Shown here in pieces: positions 4,551 through 14,368 of a DNA stretch of 64,000 nucleotides. The first letter of the stretch is position 1; the number at the start of each line of letters is the position of its first letter. The notes beneath the pieces are model-generated. The model was not told the DNA's origin and did no database searches. It saw nothing but the letters and a program-made list of their open reading frames with translations. Made by a program: the position numbers and the translations under genes. This DNA is from Proteocatella sphenisci DSM 23131 (GTDB lineage Bacteria; Bacillota; Clostridia; Peptostreptococcales; Filifactoraceae), in NCBI RefSeq assembly GCF_000423525.1, contig NZ_AUID01000015.1, positions 1-64,000 on the forward strand, written 5' to 3'.

Positions 4551-4580
4551 TAACAAAAGATTTAAAGCTAGTTTAAATAT

Positions 4581-4731
4581 ATTGGCAAACTTCGTGAAAA
4601 CGGAGGTCGCAAAGCTAGGAGTCTAAGTTAGATACATAGGTCACACTTTAGTTTTATTGTCGTGATCAAACTTATATCTAATATGATAGTTCAGCTGCAA
4701 CTAAATTTATAGTTGCAGCTTTTTTATTTTC
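4581..4731 (+). promoter_or_regulatory. Class I cyclic di-GMP riboswitch (GEMM) with terminator
   Basis: The leader carries the GEMM-I landmarks in order. GGCAAAC is at 4584-4590, then a stem capped by a GAAA tetraloop (cgtGAAAacg, 4593-4602), GGTCGCAAAGC (4605-4615), and a GTCTAAG motif at 4621-4627. A long arm is closed by TTAGATA (4628-4634) pairing with TATCTAA (4675-4681). The 3' landmark ATGATAGTTCAGCTGC follows at 4683-4698. A perfect 11-bp terminator stem, 4693-4703 with 4710-4720, is followed by a T-run. Its 5' arm overlaps the conserved 3' end of the aptamer, so the ligand-bound fold and the terminator should exclude each other. This predicts an ON switch (inference). It lies 22 bases upstream of the SipW/TasA-like operon. 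Confidence 0.85.
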
Positions 4732-4753
4732 TTGCTTTTAAGGAGAGTGTCAT

Positions 4754-5686
4754 ATGAAAAATCCAAAAACCAAAATGACAGCCTGGAAGCTGGGGGCATT
4801 ACTTATCACTAGCAGTTTATGTATATCGACACTTGGAATAAGTTATTCATATTTTGGAGAAAGCCTTATGGGGAAAGCGTCGATGTCGGTAGCCAAAATG
4901 AACATTGAGGGCGAAGAAACCGGGAAAATAGAGTATGACTATGAAAATAAGATTCTTAAAGTGATATTTGATCTCAAAAATACAGGAGAAATACCAGTAA
5001 AGATATATATAAAAAGTGCAGAAGCTACGTATAACAGTTTTTCTGATGAATCAGAAAAGAGAGTATTTATGGAATATGAAGATAAGATATTCGATGATGC
5101 TTTACTTGAACCAGATGAGATGGAAAAAGAATTCACACTGGAATTTATAAATGTTCATGTAGAAGACAATGAATATGGATATTTTGAAACAGAGATCGAA
5201 GTTGAATATGTGAATTCGGAAACAGAATCCTGGAAAGATACATTAAAAATAGAGGCAGTAGATGAAAACAGGCGTATGCAGGCGGAAAGATATCTTGAAT
5301 ATCTAACTTCACTTGAAGCACAATCCGTGCAACCAACACCGGGAGCACCATCTGAGCCAGCACCAGAAGTTCCAGCACCAGAGGCTCCAGTACAGGCATC
5401 ACCAGAAGTTCCATCTGAGCCAGCACCAGAGGCTCCAGTACAGCCATCACCAGAAGTTCCAGCACCAGAGGCTCCAGTACAGCCACCACCAGAAGTTCCA
5501 GCACCAGAGGCTCCAGTACAGCCATCACCAGAAGTTCCATCTGAGCCAGCACCAGAGGCTCCAGTACAGTCACCACCAGAAGTTCCATCTGAGCCAGCAC
5601 CAGAGGCTCCAGCAGAACCAAAATCAGAGGCTCCAGCAGAGTCCTCAGCGCAGGAACAAAATGATTCTGAGGTGGTTATATCATGA
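4754..5686 (+). CDS. Secreted protein with SipW-type signal and Pro-rich tail
   Basis: A 310-residue protein with no recognised full-length family. The N-terminus (about residues 10-36, ending [12 protein letters not shown]) has the hydrophobic core plus aromatic YSYF pattern of SipW-dependent signal peptides. Residues about 45-175 form an acidic, beta-rich domain containing [15 protein letters not shown], the N-TG-x-x-P-V motif of TasA/camelysin-like proteins. Residues about 193-300 are Pro/Glu/Ala/Val repeats ([23 protein letters not shown]), a typical cell-wall-spanning stalk. No LPXTG motif follows. It is the first gene behind the c-di-GMP-I riboswitch and overlaps the signal peptidase gene by ATGA, implying coupled translation. 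It may be a fibre anchor or minor subunit (inference). Confidence 0.7.
5333..5640 (+). repeat. Degenerate Pro-rich coding repeats
   Basis: Imperfect repeats built from ccagcaccagaggctccag and ccatctgagccagc units encode the [14 protein letters not shown] stalk. All units are multiples of three, so copy-number change would alter stalk length without breaking the frame. Confidence 0.85.
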
Positions 5687-6870
5687 TCAAGTTGTCCACA
5701 AGGATAAGAGCATCTTCAGCAATTGCAGTTACTATGGTTGCGATACTATACGCTGCTGAGAACACCAGGATTAACGTAAATTTTAGTATAGGAATGATTA
5801 CTGTGCCACTGTGGCTAATAATAGCAGTTATTATATCGAGGTGGTTTCCGCAGGGAAGAAGTCGTGCAAAGCTGCAATATAAAAAGAAGATTTATTTATG
5901 GGCATTAAATATGGGTACGGCTTATGTAATTATAAATATCATAGCAGGATATCTGCTTGGTTTTGGTAAATCGCCTTACCAGTTTACTCTCAAGGGTATA
6001 GCGCTTAACATATTTCTTTTTTCAGCTGTGATAGGGAGAGAATTTGTAAGAGATTATATTTTGAGATCTTTTACAGAACACAAAAAGGCGGGTGTGGCTG
6101 GAGTTACAGTACTTATGACATTTATTGCCATATCATTCTTTTCGTGGACAGAGATAGTGGATTTTAAATCAGGTGTAATATTTATATCTGAAACGTTGCT
6201 CCCACATCTTGGAGAAAACATTCTTGCAACAACTTTGGTATATTTTGGAGGCCCCTGGGCTTCTGTAATATATATATCGATTACAAGGGGGATTACATTC
6301 TTTGTACCGATACTTCCTAATCTTAACTGGCTCGCTAAGGCCAGCATAGGTTTTGGAATTCCAGTAGTGTGTACAGTTTTTTTTAACAATCATTATCTGA
6401 GGCTTACAAAAATCATCAAAGACTGTAAAAATAATGATGAAAATGTACTGTTTTGGGTATTGACGATGGTTACATCAGTTGCTCTTATATGGTTTGTAGC
6501 TGGGGTGTTTCCATTATATCCATCTGCTGTTGCAACTGGGAGTATGATTCCAGTAGTACAGCCAGGGGACGTGGTTATAATGAGAAAGATAACAGAGGTT
6601 GACCAGGCGGCGCAGCTTAGTGTTGGAGATGTCATACAGTTTAAAAGATCAGACATACTCATAACACACAGAATTGTAGCTATTGAAAATTCAGAGAAGG
6701 AGGAGATGCGGATAATTACTAAAGGAGATAATAACTCGGGTATCGATTCGGTGCCTGTAGGGTTAGAAGATTTGAGAGGAAAGCTATTGAGGGTAATTCC
6801 CAAGATTGGCTGGCCCACTCTTCTTCTCAAGAGTGGAAATCAGATTTTGGATACCGAGGTTGAATTTTAA
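5683..6870 (+). CDS. SipW/ER-type signal peptidase I with extra N-terminal membrane domain
   Basis: A 395-residue protein. Residues about 255-380 are a signal peptidase I of the SipW/archaeal/ER type: a membrane anchor ([20 protein letters not shown]), the catalytic serine in VATGSMIPV (Ser287), and His329 in LITHRIV in place of the bacterial lysine. The TKGDNN box is at 347-352. Residues 1-250 form about six hydrophobic segments absent from the roughly 190-residue Bacillus SipW. The start overlaps the upstream stop (ATGA). It should cleave the SipW-type signals of the genes at 4754, 6941 and 8955, as SipW does for TasA and YqxM/TapA. The function of the extra membrane domain is unknown. Confidence 0.88.
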
Positions 6871-6940
6871 GTTCTCTGGCCCCAATAGAATGATCAGATA
6901 TGTTTAAATATGATTGTAAAATATTTGGGAGGAAAATACA

Positions 6941-7678
6941 ATGAGAAAAATGAAGAGTATATTAGGTATACTTATACTATCTATTGGTATATTAGGAACA
7001 GGATACGCATACTGGTGTGATACACTAAAAGTTGAAGCAACAGTAAAAACAGGTTCATTTGACGTAGACTTTGGTTGCATAGGAGTGATGGATTATTGTA
7101 CTGAAGCAACTGCAAGCGGACCAAATGGGGATATGATTTCCATCAACACTGGCGAACTTGTACCAGGCAGCTGGGCATTCTTTAATATTCCTTTTATAAA
7201 CAGAGGAGCAAACCGTGCATATCTTGCAGATGTAACAGTTCGTGGAAACGATGATGCAAGAGAAGTAGATTACTGGGTAGGAATGAATGGACACTGGTAT
7301 CTATGGAAATTAGACTCAGCTTATAGTATTGATGATGTTATAGAAAGAATGTTTGATAGAGTATACCCAAGAGGATTAAAAGAAGAAAGAATGATGTCAG
7401 TTCAAATAATGCCATTTATTAAAAATATTAATGAATGTCAGGGCGGACAGAATACAGAATCTAATTTTGATCTAATGTTCAAATGGATACAAGGGGATTG
7501 TAACGAAGGATGTAACAGAACAATGCTAAAAACTGCGGAAGCATTTGATATCGTAGATGGAGCAGCATTTGCAGCAGCTATGGAAGGAATGGGAGAACTA
7601 CCTGTTTCTGAAGTAATAGATGAAGATGTAGCAATAGATATGGGTCAAGACGTGGCAGACGAAGAAGTAGCGTTTTAA
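6941..7678 (+). CDS. TasA-like fibre protein with SipW-type signal peptide
   Basis: A 245-residue protein. Its N-terminus is a short signal ending GTGYAYW, followed by CDTLKVEATVKTGSFDVDFG; the ATVKTGSFDV stretch is the TasA/camelysin hallmark. ELVPGSWAFFNIPFINRGANRAYL matches the L-x-P-G-x...F-x-N-x-G repeat element of TasA-type domains. Eight or so cysteines are present, one at the fourth position after the predicted YA cleavage. The C-terminus is acidic (DEDVAIDMGQDVADEE), with no anchor. The strong GGGAGG ribosome site and simple codon choice suggest high expression, as expected for a main matrix subunit (inference). It shares its signal and first mature segment with the protein at 8955. 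Function is inferred from family and signal peptidase context. Confidence 0.75.
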   Translation: MRKMKSILGILILSIGILGTGYAYWCDTLKVEATVKTGSFDVDFGCIGVMDYCTEATASGPNGDMISINTGELVPGSWAFFNIPFINRGANRAYLADVTVRGNDDAREVDYWVGMNGHWYLWKLDSAYSIDDVIERMFDRVYPRGLKEERMMSVQIMPFIKNINECQGGQNTESNFDLMFKWIQGDCNEGCNRTMLKTAEAFDIVDGAAFAAAMEGMGELPVSEVIDEDVAIDMGQDVADEEVAF

Positions 7679-7715
7679 TAATTGATACAACCCACATTTG
7701 CATTTACTATATATT

Positions 7716-7784
7716 GATGCCCTGTATTATGCAGGGCATCACAAATAGATTTATTTTCGGCACTTCCGATTATAAATCTATTTG
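7716..7784 (+). other. Two tandem RNA hairpins between matrix genes
   Basis: Hairpin 1 is GATGCCCTG (7716-7724) with CAGGGCATC (7732-7740). Hairpin 2 is a perfect 13-bp stem, 7742-7754 with 7772-7784, containing an inner CGG/CCG stem. Neither has a T-run. They probably act as an mRNA stabiliser or partial block that keeps the upstream matrix gene more abundant than the downstream gene (inference). Confidence 0.6.
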
Positions 7785-7832
7785 TACATAAAAGCTAAAA
7801 TGCCTGTGAGGGAGAACATCGGGAGGGTTCAA

Positions 7833-8924
7833 GTGAAAACTCAGAAAAAATATAATATAAAGCGGGTTGTACTTATTTTATCTGGAGTTATTATAGCCTC
7901 TGCAGGTATTTTTGCAGTAGTTTCAGAGTTCATGAATTCCGAAAAAATAAGCATTGAGACACCAGTTGCAGATTACAGATCCGATATGAATGTTAGTTAT
8001 AATGTCATTCCCAAAGCAAATATGCTTTACGGGGAAGGAATTCTTAACGAGGGACTTACCTATATTACAGAATTTGTAAATCAGGTGGATTCAAATTTTG
8101 AATATAAGGTTTCTGGAGATTCTACTATGAAAGTAAACGGATATTATAGCGTAAATGTAGTGTTTACAGGTTACGTGGATTCTGAAGGAGAAGGAGCAAA
8201 CGTATGGAGCAAGCAAAAAGAGATTGTTCCAAAGACAGAATTCAACCTTAATGCTACAGGAGATGTGCTAAAACAGAGAGTGAGAATGGATGTAGATGAT
8301 TATAACAGCTTTGTAAAAACTGTTATTGAAGCCAGCAGTATAAAAGTTCCAGTTAAGGCCACTGTAACTATGGCAGGTGAAGCTACAATAAAAAATTCAA
8401 ATGGAGAGACAATAGAACCCATATCGGGCTCACTTGTGATACCTCTTGACAAATCATATTTTAATATAGAAAAAACAGGAGTGGGGTCCAAAGAAGGCAA
8501 TATTTTTAAAGTTGAAGAAATACAAGCACCGTTGAATCTTTTAAAAATTTCAGTGTCAGCAATACTGTTAATGGCAGGGATTATAATTCTAGCTTATGGA
8601 TCAATGTCAAAACCTTTGGACAATGAAGGAATTAGATTCAAGGATATAAAAAAAATGTTATCAAGCTATGGAAGCCGATCAGCTGCAGTAGGTAAAATAT
8701 CCACCGAAAAAATGGATAGTATTTATGAAATAAAACTTATGGAAGACATAGTAAAAGTAGCTGATGAACTTGGAAAGCCCATTCTTTATGAATATAGAGA
8801 TAATATAAAAGATATAGAATATTTTTGTGTAATAGATGGAAGTACCATGTACAGGTATAATATAGAAGTTGATGAAGGGGAAAGTGTAAATGCAAGTTTG
8901 AGATATGCAAGGATAGAAATATGA
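7833..8924 (+). CDS. DUF5305 membrane protein
   Basis: A 363-residue protein with a short cytoplasmic N-terminus, a membrane segment at about 10-30, an extracellular beta-rich region of about 220 residues, a second membrane segment (LLKISVSAILLMAGIIILAYG), and a cytoplasmic tail of about 100 residues. The layout, with MLYGEG...NFEYKVSG...YSVNVVF and WSKQKEIVPKTEF, fits DUF5305. That family often neighbours SipW-type signal peptidases in Clostridia and archaea. The GTG at 7833 is chosen because GGGAGG lies just upstream; the earlier ATG at 7800 and TTG at 7782 lack ribosome sites and fall near or in a hairpin. The biochemical role is unknown; a membrane scaffold or assembly factor for matrix proteins is a guess. 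Confidence 0.75.
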   Translation: MKTQKKYNIKRVVLILSGVIIASAGIFAVVSEFMNSEKISIETPVADYRSDMNVSYNVIPKANMLYGEGILNEGLTYITEFVNQVDSNFEYKVSGDSTMKVNGYYSVNVVFTGYVDSEGEGANVWSKQKEIVPKTEFNLNATGDVLKQRVRMDVDDYNSFVKTVIEASSIKVPVKATVTMAGEATIKNSNGETIEPISGSLVIPLDKSYFNIEKTGVGSKEGNIFKVEEIQAPLNLLKISVSAILLMAGIIILAYGSMSKPLDNEGIRFKDIKKMLSSYGSRSAAVGKISTEKMDSIYEIKLMEDIVKVADELGKPILYEYRDNIKDIEYFCVIDGSTMYRYNIEVDEGESVNASLRYARIEI

Positions 8925-8954
8925 TTGATTAAAACCTTTAGAAAGGAGGTTTTT

Positions 8955-9848
8955 ATGAAGAAAATTAAGGGGATTTTTGGAATTCTGCTTATGATTACAG
9001 GGATGTTGGGGACCGGTTATGCTTACTGGATGGATGATCTCCAGGTATATGCTACTGTAGCGACTGGTAATTTTGATGTAGAATACTGCGAAGAACATAC
9101 CGAAGGAGAGATTTATGGAGTTGCATCGCTGGAAGTTGATATAGAAGATGGAAAAGCGGAAATAATGGTAGACAAGCTTGCTCCAGGGTGCGATCTTACT
9201 GCAACTCTTTGTTTCAAAAATACAGGTACTGTAAATGCAATATTGAGCGAAATACGTATAGAAAATATGGAATATACGGATGAGTACGATATAGTCCAGT
9301 ATAGAGCTGAGATAGGCGAGAATATAATATCGGGTGAGAACCTTGTTGCTTTTAAAGAAGAACTGGAAAATCTCATAGATATGTTAAAACTGAATAGAGA
9401 AGAATGTAAGAGCCTTGAAATTACAGCATTCATACCATATGATGAAGAACAATACCAAAAAGGACAAAAGCAGAATTGTAAATTTGAAATAATATTTGAC
9501 TGGAGACAAGATATAGCTAAATACGGAAGTACTTCAGAACCAGCTGTAACAGAACCAGCTGTAACAGAACCAGCTGTAACAGAACCAGCTGTAACAGAAC
9601 CAGCTGTAACAGTTGTTCCAGGGATCAACAAGCCTGATGGCTCAAAAGTTACTGATGGAGAAAAATACAATAAGGTAGAATTTTCAGGACCAGGTATTTC
9701 ATCAGGAGGTTCTGGCGGAGGCGGAGTAGCAATTAAAAAAACTCAAAACAAGTTTGATTTTAAAGACTTAGAATATTTTTTCAAGTATCTGAAAAAGCAG
9801 TTTGGTATAGAATTTATCCAGGAAATGACAGGGAAAGCTAAGTATTAA
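8955..9848 (+). CDS. TasA-like protein with SipW-type signal, EPAVT repeats and Gly-rich linker
   Basis: A 297-residue protein. The N-terminus GILLMITGMLGTGYAYWMDD is nearly the same as that of the protein at 6941, and VYATVATGNFDVEY gives the same TasA-type start of the mature protein. DKLAPGCDLTATLCFKNTGTVNAIL matches the L-x-P-G...F-x-N-x-G motif. Residues about 195-220 are five EPAVT units, then a Gly/Ser segment (SSGGSGGGG) and a Lys-rich helical C-terminus ending in GKAKY. The ATG at 8955 follows AAAGGAGG by 6 bases; an in-frame TTG at 8925 is rejected. It is the last gene of the operon, with a terminator at 9879-9911. It is probably a second fibre subunit or cap (inference). Confidence 0.72.
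   Translation: MKKIKGIFGILLMITGMLGTGYAYWMDDLQVYATVATGNFDVEYCEEHTEGEIYGVASLEVDIEDGKAEIMVDKLAPGCDLTATLCFKNTGTVNAILSEIRIENMEYTDEYDIVQYRAEIGENIISGENLVAFKEELENLIDMLKLNREECKSLEITAFIPYDEEQYQKGQKQNCKFEIIFDWRQDIAKYGSTSEPAVTEPAVTEPAVTEPAVTEPAVTVVPGINKPDGSKVTDGEKYNKVEFSGPGISSGGSGGGGVAIKKTQNKFDFKDLEYFFKYLKKQFGIEFIQEMTGKAKY
9537..9611 (+). repeat. Five perfect 15-bp tandem repeats (EPAVT)
   Basis: The unit gaaccagctgtaaca is repeated five times without a mismatch in the gene at 8955. Perfect identity implies recent expansion or ongoing slippage; changes keep the reading frame. Confidence 0.95.
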
Positions 9849-9878
9849 GGTGATTAAAATAATATTGGTAACAAATAG

Positions 9879-9911
9879 AGGAACTTCGCTATAAGCGGTT
9901 CCTTTATTTTA
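9879..9911 (+). terminator. Terminator of the SipW/TasA-like operon
   Basis: AGGAAC (9879-9884) pairs with GTTCCT, and an inner CGCT/AGCG stem closes a 3-base loop. The following sequence, ttattttat, is T-rich. Confidence 0.75.
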
Positions 9912-10100
9912 TATCTCATATGTGGCTAAAAACTTACTTTAATGCCACATTGCTAAAAGAGTATACCTTGTGCCATAGGGTATATTAAGTTAAAGGATAT
10001 ATTAAATTTTAATTGTTATATTGAAGGGGGATGATGCCTATTAAATTAGATTTGAGGATTGCAGGTATAACCTTTAATCTAAGCTTACTGTTAACTAAGT
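9912..10100 (+). other. Structured leader of unknown type upstream of class II aptamers
   Basis: Three hairpins can be drawn: ATGTGGC (9920-9926) with GCCACAT (9944-9950); 9961-9967 with 9979-9985; and a longer one from TTAGATT (10046-10052) with AATCTAA (10076-10082), extended by GAGG/CCTT. No coding potential or known RNA family is recognised. The adhesin promoter must lie here or just upstream, but no convincing -35/-10 pair was found. Confidence 0.4.
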
Positions 10101-10102
10101 TT

Positions 10103-10181
10103 AGAAAGGAAGCAATGAAGCACATCCGTTTCACCTGGGCACCTAGGGATGTGTGGAGCCAGTAGTGCAACCGACCTTTCT
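10103..10181 (+). promoter_or_regulatory. Class II cyclic di-GMP riboswitch aptamer 1
   Basis: The aptamer has a perfect P1, AGAAAGG (10103-10109) with CCTTTCT (10175-10181). The GGAAGCAATGAAG motif is followed by P2, CACATCC (10121-10127) with GGATGTG (10147-10153). The loop carries CTGGGCAC, and the strongly conserved 3' block GGAGCCAGTAGTGCAACCGA follows. These match the class II c-di-GMP riboswitch consensus known from Clostridioides difficile. No terminator lies between it and the second aptamer. Confidence 0.9.
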
Positions 10182-10198
10182 CGGATACTCTATCATTT

Positions 10199-10295
10199 GG
10201 AGAGGAAGCTATGAAGTGTATTTTTAATCTGGGCACTTACGAAATACATGGAGCTAGTAGTGCAACCGAACTTTTTAAATTAATAGTTTAAAAAG
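10199..10295 (+). promoter_or_regulatory. Class II cyclic di-GMP riboswitch aptamer 2 with SD-hiding hairpin
   Basis: The second aptamer has GGAAGCTATGAAG, P2 TGTATTT (10217-10223) with AAATACA (10242-10248), CTGGGCAC in the loop, and GGAGCTAGTAGTGCAACCGA. P1 is weak: GAGAGG (10200-10205) with CTTTTT (10271-10276), including G-U pairs. The same CTTTTTAAA (10271-10279) pairs perfectly with TTTAAAAAG (10287-10295), covering the start of the adhesin's AAAAGGGG ribosome site. Ligand-stabilised P1 would free the ribosome site, so a translational ON switch is predicted (inference). Confidence 0.88.
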
Positions 10296-10301
10296 GGGAT
10301 A

Positions 10302-13300
10302 ATGAAGATGAGAAAAATCACGAGAAGAAAAAGATTGTTATCATTATTTACAATGGTAATCCTTCTTACATCAACTGCATGGACTTCATTTGCATATGCA
10401 GACAGTGAAGGAATAGACCAAGGAGTTCCAAATCAACTTGTTCAGGAACTTTCTTCTGAAGAAGCCCCAATAATGCCAGCTGAAGAAACACCAGAATTAT
10501 ATTCTGAAGAAAATATTGAGCAGGTTGTGGGAGACGGAACTCAAGAAGAGGTAATTGAAGAAGAGGTAATTGAAGAAGAGGTAATTGAAGAAGAAGTAAT
10601 TGAAGAAGAGGTAATTGAAGAAGAGGTAATTGAAGAAGAACTAATCGAAGAAGAAGTAATTGAAGAAGAGGTAATTGAAGAAGAGGTAATTGAAGAAGAA
10701 GTAATTGAAGAAGAGGTAATTGAAGAAGAGGTAATTGAAGAAGAACTAATCGAAGAAGAACTACAATTAGGAGCGAATCCTCTGATTCCTCTTGCGGCAC
10801 CATATTCTTGGTTACCTGTTGTTAAAAAACAGATAACAGTTAGAAAAGTATGGACAGATGGAAAAAACGTTATTAAGGATAAGGATACAAAAGATTTTCC
10901 TGAAGTTACAGTAGAAATTGATTTCACTGATAAAAAAGTCAAAGACATATCATTGAAACTTAATAGCAAAAACGGTTGGAAAGCTGAAGTTAAAGATATT
11001 GACTTAAGGCTTGTATATACAGTTAAAGAAAAAACGGTGAAACCGCCTAAAGGCTACACACTCAAAGAGACTGTAATAACTGAAGAATGTAATTCACCTG
11101 ACCAAGCTCGATTTGATTATCAAGAGGGCAATGACAAAAATAAATGTAAAGACATCGAATGTATATATACAGTTATAAATACAGTAATTCCAGTCAATCA
11201 AAAGCAAGACAAAAAGATTACTGTAAAAAAAGTATGGACAGATGGAAAGAATGTTATTGAAGATACAAGCGGTTTCCCTGAAGTTACAGTAAAAATTGAT
11301 TTTACTGATAAAAAAGTTAAAGATGTGTTCTTAAAACTTAACGAGGGAAACAAATGGACAAAAACGGTGGACGATATTGATTCAAAACTTAAATACACTG
11401 TTACAGAAGAACCTTTAAGTATACCTAATGGATATACACTAAAAGAGACTGTAATAACCGAAGAATGTAATTCACCTGACCGAGCTCGCGTTGATTATCA
11501 AGAGGGCAATGACAAAAACAAATGTGAAGACCTAGAATGTCTATACACAGTTACAAATACGGTTATAGAGATAGAGCATGATAAAGATCCAATAAAAATT
11601 GTAAACTTTGAGAAGATATGGGAAGATGAAGAGGGAAATGTAATAGAAGCTAAAGATACTTCAAATTTCCCAACAGTCAAAATCAAAATATACCAACCAG
11701 CGGATAAAAATGCTCCTTGGGGTAGCTCAATCCAAACACTTGAACTTAAATCTAAACATGGATGGAAAGCTAGCTCAAATCCTCTTGACGTAGGTGAAAA
11801 TACACACAGATTTTTAGAATTTAAAGAAAGTAGTGTTGGTATCCCTGAGGGATATATGATAGCTGCTGACTATAAAATTGACAAAATATCTGAAAAAACA
11901 CGTGAAGAAGACTTTTACAATTTAGACTATAAAATCATGGTAACACGTTGTTATTACACAGTTACCAATAGAATTGTACCGATTCCTACAGAAGGAAAGG
12001 AAAGCATCATAGTAACAAAGGTATGGAAAGACGGAGAAACTGTTATCGAAAACACAGTTGATTTCCCAGAAGTTAAAGTTAAAATTGATTTTACAGACGA
12101 AACAGTAACAGATATAGAATTGATGTTAAACCATGGCAACGACTGGAGTCAAACAACAGCTGAGAAAATCGATGTAAATCTTGAATACAATTTAACTGAA
12201 GAAGATGTTACAGGTCTTCCAGATGGCTATGAAATAGCAGGAACTTATAAAGTTAATAAAAACACGCCTTATTCATGGACAGTTGAAAACACAGTTAAAA
12301 AAGAAGCTGAGGCGACAGGCACAATCCAAGGTTATAAATTCAACGACCTTGACAGAGATGGTGCATGGGATGAAGGCGAAGCAGGACTAGAGGGCTGGAC
12401 AATAACACTTTGGAAATACCTTGGTGATATGGATGAAAGCGGAAATCTTTCAGTTGCAGATGTTGAAAATATGGGAACTGCATTAACAGATGTAAACGGA
12501 ATGTATCAGTTTATAAATCTTGAAGATGGAGCAACTTATTATCTGTCTGAAAATATCACATCAATGTCTTATTGGTATCAGACATATCCAGTTACTGGAC
12601 CAGAGCTTGCAGGTACAGGTAAAATGAATATTGTTGAATCTGTTAAAAATGGTGACGAGATTACTAATGTAAACTTTGGTAACTATTATGACAAACCAGG
12701 CGATGGCGGCGGAGGTAACGAAAATCCTGGCGAAAAAGGCACAATCCAAGGTTATAAATTCAACGACCTTGACAGAGATGGTGCATGGGACGAAGGCGAA
12801 GCAGGACTAGAGGGCTGGACAATAACACTTTGGAAATACCTTGGTGATATGGATGAAAGCGGAAATCTTTCAGTTGCAGATGTTGAAAATATGGGAACTG
12901 CATTAACAGATGTAAACGGAATGTATCAGTTTATAAATCTTGAAGATGGAGCAACCTATTATCTGTCTGAAAATATCGCATCAATGTCTTATTGGTATCA
13001 GACATATCCAGTTACTGGACCAGAGCTTGCAGGTACAGGAAGACTGAATGTTGTAGAACTTATCGAAGCTGGCGCAATCGTTTCAGATGTAAACTTTGGT
13101 AACTATTATGACAAACCAGGCGATGGCGGTAACGAAAACCCTGACACACCTGACACTCCAAGTGGAAATAGCGGCGGCGGTGGTGGTGGTACTACTGTTA
13201 GAATAACTCCTGGTGGAGGAACTTCAAATCCTATTGCTATAGAAGCATTTGGCCCAGGTGAAGAAGAGTTTATTACTTTAGATATGCCAGTATTTTCATC

Positions 13301-13469
13301 AGTGGAAGAACCAGAAGAAATAGCTACAGAAGCTTTTCTTGAGCAGGCAGTGATGTCAGCAGGTCCTGATGATAATCCACAGACTTCGGATGCTGGATTT
13401 GCAATGCAGATGCAGATGCTTGGACTTTCTTTGGCAGCTATGTTTGTATTAAGAAGAAAAATTAAATAA
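10302..13469 (+). CDS. Large Cna-B/SdrD-B adhesin with NPQTS sorting signal
   Basis: A 1055-residue surface protein. In order: a Sec signal (about 1-34, ending SFAYADSEG); 14 EEVIE/EELIE repeats (82-151); four Cna-B-like domains (about 174-290, 300-425, 428-560, 565-668), each with the K-V-W-x-D-G start and T-V-x-N-T end; two almost identical SdrD-B-like domains (from about 673 and 813) with GYKFNDLDRDGAWDEGEAG calcium-type loops and DMDESGNLSVAD loops; a Gly-rich linker; and the sorting signal NPQTSDAG at 1025 with a hydrophobic helix and RRKIK tail. ATGs at 10302 and 10308 are both possible; the second has better ribosome-site spacing. Expression should be governed by the tandem class II c-di-GMP aptamers. 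The convergent class B sortase is its likely anchoring enzyme. Confidence 0.9.
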   Translation: MKMRKITRRKRLLSLFTMVILLTSTAWTSFAYADSEGIDQGVPNQLVQELSSEEAPIMPAEETPELYSEENIEQVVGDGTQEEVIEEEVIEEEVIEEEVIEEEVIEEEVIEEELIEEEVIEEEVIEEEVIEEEVIEEEVIEEEVIEEELIEEELQLGANPLIPLAAPYSWLPVVKKQITVRKVWTDGKNVIKDKDTKDFPEVTVEIDFTDKKVKDISLKLNSKNGWKAEVKDIDLRLVYTVKEKTVKPPKGYTLKETVITEECNSPDQARFDYQEGNDKNKCKDIECIYTVINTVIPVNQKQDKKITVKKVWTDGKNVIEDTSGFPEVTVKIDFTDKKVKDVFLKLNEGNKWTKTVDDIDSKLKYTVTEEPLSIPNGYTLKETVITEECNSPDRARVDYQEGNDKNKCEDLECLYTVTNTVIEIEHDKDPIKIVNFEKIWEDEEGNVIEAKDTSNFPTVKIKIYQPADKNAPWGSSIQTLELKSKHGWKASSNPLDVGENTHRFLEFKESSVGIPEGYMIAADYKIDKISEKTREEDFYNLDYKIMVTRCYYTVTNRIVPIPTEGKESIIVTKVWKDGETVIENTVDFPEVKVKIDFTDETVTDIELMLNHGNDWSQTTAEKIDVNLEYNLTEEDVTGLPDGYEIAGTYKVNKNTPYSWTVENTVKKEAEATGTIQGYKFNDLDRDGAWDEGEAGLEGWTITLWKYLGDMDESGNLSVADVENMGTALTDVNGMYQFINLEDGATYYLSENITSMSYWYQTYPVTGPELAGTGKMNIVESVKNGDEITNVNFGNYYDKPGDGGGGNENPGEKGTIQGYKFNDLDRDGAWDEGEAGLEGWTITLWKYLGDMDESGNLSVADVENMGTALTDVNGMYQFINLEDGATYYLSENIASMSYWYQTYPVTGPELAGTGRLNVVELIEAGAIVSDVNFGNYYDKPGDGGNENPDTPDTPSGNSGGGGGGTTVRITPGGGTSNPIAIEAFGPGEEEFITLDMPVFSSVEEPEEIATEAFLEQAVMSAGPDDNPQTSDAGFAMQMQMLGLSLAAMFVLRRKIK
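10545..10754 (+). repeat. Fourteen 15-bp repeats (EEVIE/EELIE) in two 105-bp blocks
   Basis: Unit gaagaggtaattgaa and variants. Units 1-7 and 8-14 each consist of six V-type units and one L-type unit (gaagaactaatcgaa). The two 105-bp blocks differ at one base, showing a block duplication on top of unit-level repetition. Confidence 0.95.
12318..13130 (+). repeat. Two 420-bp-spaced near-identical SdrD-B modules
   Basis: The sequence from 12318 repeats from 12738. About 290 bases show only three or four substitutions (for example in GGGATGAAGG/GGGACGAAGG), then a short diverged stretch, then a shared stretch ending GACAAACCAGGCGATGGCGG. This is a recent in-frame domain duplication and could recombine. 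Confidence 0.93.
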
Positions 13470-13481
13470 TAATTTATAATG

Positions 13482-13525
13482 AAAAACATCAGGCTCCTCA
13501 TTTAAATGAGAAGTCTGATGTTTTC
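13482..13525. terminator. Bidirectional terminator between adhesin and sortase
   Basis: AAAACATCAG (13483-13492) pairs with CTGATGTTTT (13515-13524), with an inner CTCATTT/AAATGAG stem. Flanking A and T runs suit both converging genes. Confidence 0.85.
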
Positions 13526-13555
13526 GTGTTAATAGGGTATTGATTTGAAATTAAT

Positions 13556-14368
13556 TTAGAATTCGGTTATAGAAGTCAGTACCGCATGAAGTGCAATACG
13601 GGAATCTTTGAAAGTATAAGCACAGGTAGAAAGTGTTATTATCTTGCTTTTGTCACTGAGGATGACGTCTGATTGAATAAGTGATTTTTCTTTGAATTCT
13701 GTGAGTTTTGATTCAAAGCTAAGCTTGTCAAAATCAGGGGACCTGTAATCATAATCTTTTTGGGTCTCATATATAGAAAAAACTGTATACTCCAAAATGC
13801 GATTATCAAGGGTTATGATAATTTTATTATGATCTTTATAGAAATTCTTATCCATGAAGAGGGATACATCGTAGAACATGGAGCCGTCTCTCATATTGTG
13901 TCCATAAATGACTGTATTTTGATTATCAAAATCAGGTGAATTCCTATAATCGGCAAATATACTTCCGGTTATATTATACTGGCGGTTGAAAGTCCTTCTA
14001 AGGTAGTATGAGTTTGTATCTGATTGCATTACTGGATAGTCTATTCCTGTTCCGGGGATTTCTATCCATGCTATGGTATCTGGATTTTTACTCTTAAGTT
14101 CTTTTAGCATCTGTGGTTTTTCTGATATATTCAAATTTATTGTTTTGACGTTTGTATCTTTGTCATCAATTGCTGCTTGATTTATATTTTCATCTGAAAT
14201 CTTTGGGGGTGAGGGTTTTTCGTCTTTAAGACTATCCATCATAGTGCGCGCACTGTATCTGCTGTACACATTCATTGCTATGTTAACAGAAAGAAAGATT
14301 GATACTATAAGAAATAATAAGAATAATAATCGAAATATCAATGCCTGCTTTGAATGTTGGCTTTTCAT
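13556..14368 (-). CDS. srtB: Class B sortase
   Basis: A 270-residue membrane-anchored sortase: an N-terminal hydrophobic segment (LIFRLLFLLFLIVSIFLS), a linker to about residue 95, then the catalytic domain beginning NPDTIAWIEIPGTGIDYPVMQ. The class B signature is complete: catalytic His in VIYGHNMRDGSMF, Cys in ITLSTCAY, and Arg in DSRIALHAV. The ATG at 14368 follows GGAGGGGGG; the TTG at 14392 lies upstream of that ribosome site and is rejected. It is convergent with the adhesin gene whose C-terminus bears NPQTS, the NP(Q/K)T(N/S)-type motif handled by class B sortases. It therefore probably anchors that adhesin to peptidoglycan. No riboswitch is visible upstream of it. Confidence 0.9.
   Translation of the reverse strand: MKSQHSKQALIFRLLFLLFLIVSIFLSVNIAMNVYSRYSARTMMDSLKDEKPSPPKISDENINQAAIDDKDTNVKTINLNISEKPQMLKELKSKNPDTIAWIEIPGTGIDYPVMQSDTNSYYLRRTFNRQYNITGSIFADYRNSPDFDNQNTVIYGHNMRDGSMFYDVSLFMDKNFYKDHNKIIITLDNRILEYTVFSIYETQKDYDYRSPDFDKLSFESKLTEFKEKSLIQSDVILSDKSKIITLSTCAYTFKDSRIALHAVLTSITEF

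Follow-up and report, generated by a model that had tools for sequence, protein, structure and literature searches.

Two adjacent, separately transcribed surface-protein modules preceded by c-di-GMP riboswitches of different classes in Proteocatella sphenisci

Genes for a SipW-like signal peptidase and candidate matrix proteins lie beside an adhesin gene and a sortase gene in Proteocatella sphenisci, and both of the unrelated classes of c-di-GMP riboswitch occur among them. The question raised by this locus is whether these genes constitute one regulated island, and in which direction each riboswitch would act. The preliminary description of the window (the whole stretch of 64,000 nucleotides that was analyzed) regarded the region as a single c-di-GMP-controlled island of a kind not previously described. 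The analysis presented below favors, with a probability of about 0.7, two adjacent and separate surface modules, a SipW matrix operon and an anchored adhesin, both predicted to be ON at high c-di-GMP. The genome encodes 26 GGDEF domains, which makes c-di-GMP signaling plausible in this organism.

Transcription units and their distribution in relatives

The features of the region are as follows.

4574-4702, plus strand: c-di-GMP-I riboswitch aptamer (RF01051, 63.7 bits, gathering threshold 35; core conserved)
4693-4720, plus strand: intrinsic terminator, class I expression platform (11 bp and a U tract; -16.7 kcal/mol, z -6.5)
4754-5686, plus strand: exported protein with a SipW-like signal and proline-rich C-terminal repeats (open reading frame; ATGA overlap with the sipW start)
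5683-6870, plus strand: SipW-like (archaeal/ER-type) signal peptidase with an N-terminal membrane domain (TIGR02228, 72 bits, cut-off 51.85)
6941-7678, plus strand: candidate matrix/fibre subunit with the SipW-type signal GYAYW..TVKTGSFDV (TIGR04088, 15 bits, below the cut-off of 19; alignment A5)
7800-8924, plus strand: DUF5305 membrane protein, start codon uncertain (PF17231, 93.7 bits)
8955-9848, plus strand: candidate matrix/fibre subunit with a SipW-type signal, Thr/Pro repeats and a glycine-rich tail (TIGR04090, BsaA family, 18.8 bits)
9873-9909, plus strand: terminator ending the SipW operon (-16.3 kcal/mol, z -5.1)
10099-10185, plus strand: c-di-GMP-II aptamer 1 of a tandem (RF01786, 69.3 bits, gathering threshold 53.5; core conserved)
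10195-10280, plus strand: c-di-GMP-II aptamer 2 of the tandem (RF01786, 75.2 bits, gathering threshold 53.5; core conserved)
10271-10295, plus strand: hairpin in which aptamer 2's P1 3' strand pairs with bases reaching into the Shine-Dalgarno sequence (-6.5 kcal/mol, z -2.7; without a U tract)
10308-13469, plus strand: predicted sortase-anchored adhesin with a signal, acidic EEEVI repeats, Cna_B-type repeats, two SdrD_B domains and NPQTS (PF05738; PF17210 twice)
13556-14368, minus strand: class B sortase, srtB (TIGR03064, 203.7 bits, cut-off 153.75)

All three aptamers named in the preliminary description, one of class I and two of class II, thus score above the Rfam gathering thresholds, and its DUF5305 protein, its Cna-B/SdrD-B adhesin with NPQTS and its class B sortase were likewise confirmed. 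The region comprises three transcription units, not one: the class I riboswitch with the SipW operon, the class II aptamers with the adhesin gene, and srtB. The SipW operon ends at a strong terminator of its own, a symmetrical bidirectional terminator (z -4.7) lies between the adhesin gene and srtB, and srtB is found on the minus strand, directly after gal genes and without a riboswitch. Because terminators separate the parts and srtB lies on the opposite strand, the region is not one regulatory unit, and the earlier view of a single island does not hold in this sense. The adhesin gene is the only one served by the tandem class II aptamers. Inclusion of srtB in a c-di-GMP unit was considered and is ruled out by strand and terminator. 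What survives of the proposal that matrix and adhesin modules stand under two unrelated c-di-GMP sensors is the predicted control of each.

The adhesin C-terminus consists of NPQTS, a hydrophobic stretch and RRKIK, and its gene adjoins that of the predicted class B sortase, the sole sortase of the genome (a single PF04203 match). The adhesin would be anchored to the wall by SrtB, which would be expressed separately. A Pfam scan of the whole adhesin missed Cna_B; scanned separately, two of the four repeats match PF05738. An alternative start codon, ATG at 10302, has poorer Shine-Dalgarno spacing than that at 10308. The N-terminal part of the adhesin gene (10302-10760) is a near-perfect tandem repeat encoding EEEVI, a repeat that likely varies in length.

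A genome scan found three class I aptamers, and the tandem contains the only class II aptamers of the 2.41-Mb genome. Given these counts, the chance of a class I and a class II aptamer lying within 5.4 kb is estimated at roughly 1-2%. The second class I aptamer (L028:7538-7621; G000:C5:19537-19620) lies before a gene for a transglutaminase-like secreted protein (PF01841), and two genes for GGDEF proteins come after it. The third (L029:7903-7985, minus strand; G000:C2:148902-148984) is within a type IV pilus cluster, between pilT-like and pilin genes.

It is nearly an even proposition that no joint system exists, and that an acquired accessory class II-adhesin unit, possibly including the sortase gene, ended up by chance next to a class I-SipW operon that was inherited vertically. 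This possibility fits the best explanation for each module and denies only that their pairing was selected. The order cysE-class I aptamer-SipW operon is conserved in the congener (G001, Clostridia bacterium INTA.CYC.035, L099), whereas a search of the congener and of family members yielded neither an adhesin counterpart nor a close srtB orthologue, and the class II-adhesin unit is absent from all other family members searched. However, the congener assembly is split into 820 contigs and is 88% complete, so absence there is weak evidence. Within the order, adhesin genes under tandem class II aptamers are common: about nine order-mates have two to four class II aptamers before genes for large sortase-anchored proteins, several of these loci adjoin a sortase-like gene, and the sortase of one (L206) is of class B and 41% identical to SrtB. 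On the favored reading, the SipW module is inherited in the genus and the adhesin module is probably accessory. Together with the terminators that divide the units, these observations agree with independent origins. On the other side, the same signal would act on both units whatever their origin, and the SipW islands of two order-mates also join both classes. One of these (L179) has, in order, a class I aptamer, a transglutaminase-like protein, a class II aptamer, a kinase, a regulator and a SipW operon; the other (L178) has two class I aptamers, a transglutaminase-like protein, a class II aptamer and a short SipW operon. In two further loci (L180 and L181) a class II adhesin adjoins a class I aptamer. 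The presence of both classes in one region is therefore not unique to the window. The comparison of neighborhoods in Clostridia shows that the two modules recur separately, and that both classes meet in L178 and L179.

Tandem class II aptamers also occur before an apparent exopolysaccharide operon (L210:165-248 and 368-451), in which a chain-length regulator, a tyrosine kinase and glycosyltransferases were recognized by eye.

Products of the SipW operon

The peptidase encoded at 5683-6870 has invariant catalytic residues, Ser287 and His329 (alignment A1), and its neighbors have SipW-type N-termini. These Ser/His motifs and neighboring signals identify it as a putative SipW-like ER-type signal peptidase. 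The SipW-type assignment made earlier stands at the level of the ER-type family model (TIGR02228) but not at that of the Bacillus SipW equivalog (NF046067), where the score of 49.1 bits is far under the cut-off of 190. The three SipW-type signals reported before are visible by eye (SYSYF, GYAYW and GYAYW). HMM searches support them less well: the two later proteins score below cut-off (TIGR04088, 15 against 19 bits; TIGR04090, 18.8 against 60), and the first has no match. The protein encoded at 4754-5686 matched nothing in Pfam or NCBIfam; its position is that of a small SipW-signal protein preceding sipW in relatives. The exported proteins would be processed by the SipW-like peptidase and would form a proteinaceous matrix or fibres.

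Alternatively, the peptidase and its partners may serve another exported structure, for example one associated with a surface layer, rather than a TasA-type matrix. The exported proteins score under the family cut-offs for TasA, BsaA and SipW substrates. The model of the protein encoded at 8955-9848 has a beta-sandwich core with blocks of pLDDT 80-90 (mean pLDDT 62) and no fold match at E<=0.001. In addition, operons of relatives often end in a gene for a protein whose C-terminus resembles, by eye, S-layer-homology repeats. Nonetheless, the SipW-type signals and a BsaA-type N-terminus matching TIGR04090 are common to seven of the nine aligned homologues of that protein, and sipW-bsa of C. perfringens is a matrix operon (PMC7395162). 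A different structure thus seems improbable, and a matrix remains the preferred role for the SipW operon.

The related operons that were inspected encode a DUF5305-like protein together with SipW, and DUF5305 is a regular companion of the long SipW peptidase (in the window and in L098, L102 and L190-L201). DUF5305 may be a component of SipW export systems; it is nowhere mentioned in the literature searched. A fold search with its predicted structure (pLDDT 81) gave only weak and partial matches, to Ig-like and ApaG-like folds, and no function is claimed on this basis.

A separate arrangement was seen in an unrelated Bacillota MAG, in which a 9-kb stretch contains three class I aptamers (L143:208-300, 2149-2246 and 8771-8873) around genes for exported proteins with TYAKYVT signals and for a short SipW-like peptidase.

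Expression platforms and their predicted direction

The class I aptamer is followed by an intrinsic terminator whose 5' arm takes in nucleotides 4693-4696, which in the aptamer belong to the lower P3 helix as part of its 3' arm. The ligand-stabilized aptamer and the terminator are therefore mutually exclusive. Folding of growing transcripts (prefix folding) shows P3 persisting until the distal terminator arm is complete, whereupon the RNA switches to the terminator. The congener, the one examined, has an RF01051 aptamer (54.2 bits) upstream of the same operon (L007/L030), and the aptamer, its insertion, the overlap of P3 with the terminator and the terminator itself are all conserved. Nucleotide changes in the congener preserve both alternatives: an A-U pair of the terminator becomes G-C, and in P3 U-A becomes U-G and G-U becomes A-U. 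This arrangement predicts an ON switch. When ligand is absent, RNA polymerase would halt at the terminator; binding of c-di-GMP would hold P3, which includes part of the terminator 5' arm, and transcription would enter the SipW operon.

The class II platform appears to act on translation. Two complete aptamers, 9 nt apart, occupy one 5' leader of the NPQTS adhesin gene, which is the tandem arrangement, and no terminator follows aptamer 2. The Shine-Dalgarno sequence, AAGGGG, is at 10293-10298. The P1 3' strand of aptamer 2 can pair with 10285-10295, masking half of it; positions 10293-10295 are unpaired with a probability of about 0.06 in the free ensemble, versus 0.94-0.98 when aptamer 2 is formed. 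The AU-rich masking hairpin has modest stability. This layout predicts a translational ON switch, in which ligand binding to aptamer 2 would allow the P1 helix to capture the strand that in the free RNA blocks part of the ribosome site, and adhesin translation would begin. No expression platform is evident for aptamer 1 itself, and two aptamers should steepen the response. Since no class II-adhesin unit was found in family relatives, the class II platform is without conservation support. The P1 3' strand of aptamer 1 could lock the P1 5' strand of aptamer 2 (a duplex of -10.0 kcal/mol, versus -6.8 kcal/mol for the latter's own P1). This cross-pairing is not claimed because it is largely explained by the similarity of the two aptamers.

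Operons of the same kind in relatives bear on the direction of control. The long SipW peptidase is encoded in 29 of 395 order-level genomes. A class II aptamer directly precedes a kinase-regulator-SipW operon in eight of them (G085, G107, G059, G092, G080, G023, G065 and G279, the aptamer of the last being barely above threshold), and a class I aptamer stands before the SipW operon instead in two, P. sphenisci and its congener; the operon of P. sphenisci lacks the kinase/regulator pair. No aptamer was found in the remainder of the 29, some of whose loci end at contig edges. The class II layout also precedes a homologous SipW operon in two Tissierellia MAGs. Five genomes of the same family have a related operon (kinase, regulator, two SipW-signal proteins, SipW, DUF5305 and a larger SipW-signal protein) in which no c-di-GMP aptamer was detected. 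In most of the class II-SipW cases the aptamer P1 3' strand doubles as the first arm of a terminator, and this reuse of P1 predicts ON control there too. The same kind of SipW operon is thus found under either aptamer class, with the same predicted direction.

Still less probable than a non-matrix role is control in opposite directions, with rising c-di-GMP exchanging matrix for adhesin: this would parallel the neighboring C. difficile genes for PPEP-1 and CD2831, where class I is OFF and class II is ON (PMC11477304), but in the window the terminator itself shares P3 nucleotides, which gives ON control without a separate antiterminator and is conserved in the congener, and the class II ON layout occurs on the same operon in relatives. 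Co-regulation of the two modules, both rising with c-di-GMP, is therefore the direction preferred here.

A sub-gathering class II-like aptamer was also observed before an apparent type IV pilus operon in two members of the same family (L031:7331-7414 and L032:6714-6797; G002 and G003).

Comparison with known systems

The claim that the locus is not a described system is too strong. In C. difficile, both classes already lie on neighboring surface-protein genes, CD2830 (ppep-1, class I) and CD2831 (adhesin, class II) (PMC11477304). Both loci have the two classes side by side and a sortase-anchored adhesin under class II, and a similar layout is found in L180 and L181. However, class I aptamers in C. 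difficile are OFF switches and the one at CD2830 controls a secreted protease, whereas that of the window precedes a SipW operon and is predicted to be ON; CD2831 has a single class II aptamer rather than a tandem. Tandem c-di-GMP-II riboswitches before a surface anchor protein (COG4932) are known from Paraclostridium and relatives (PMC9481103). The window resembles these in that a gene for a surface-anchored protein follows more than one class II aptamer; here, aptamer 2 seems to control access to the ribosome site, and aptamer 1 is the one without an evident platform. L178 and L179 are further precedents for the two-class island.

The SipW operon has its own counterparts. Like C. perfringens sipW-bsaABCRSD, a matrix operon in which a sortase B gene adjoins sipW (PMC7395162), and B. 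subtilis tapA-sipW-tasA, it encodes a SipW-like peptidase with dedicated exported proteins, here candidate matrix proteins. The C. perfringens operon requires the operon-encoded BsaRS two-component system, while the window operon has a riboswitch and no kinase/regulator pair; riboswitch control has not been reported for either the C. perfringens or the B. subtilis operon. Closer are the operons of order-mates and Tissierellia MAGs (L098, L102, L179, L194-L199 and L201), which encode homologous SipW, DUF5305 and SipW-signal proteins under a c-di-GMP aptamer. They combine class II with a kinase/regulator pair, whereas the genus of P. sphenisci has class I and no such pair. No pairing of SipW or TasA with c-di-GMP riboswitch control appears in the literature searched, which is weak evidence, as most subscription papers lie outside it. 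What is apparently new is therefore not the two-class island itself but c-di-GMP riboswitch control of SipW/TasA-type operons, with the class changing between lineages.

It is an evenly balanced possibility that clostridial SipW matrix operons are an unrecognized c-di-GMP riboswitch regulon, in which the same kind of operon was captured by two unrelated aptamers, class II in several families and class I in this genus, with ON control kept and the class I takeover coincident with loss of the two-component system. If so, RNA would link a widespread lifestyle signal directly to the SipW machinery for protein matrices in clostridia, in contrast to the characterized clostridial example, that of C. 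perfringens, which relies on a two-component system. One operon under two unrelated RNA sensors would offer a natural comparison for the replacement of one riboswitch class by another, and the matrix behavior of uncultured anaerobes would become predictable from sequence.
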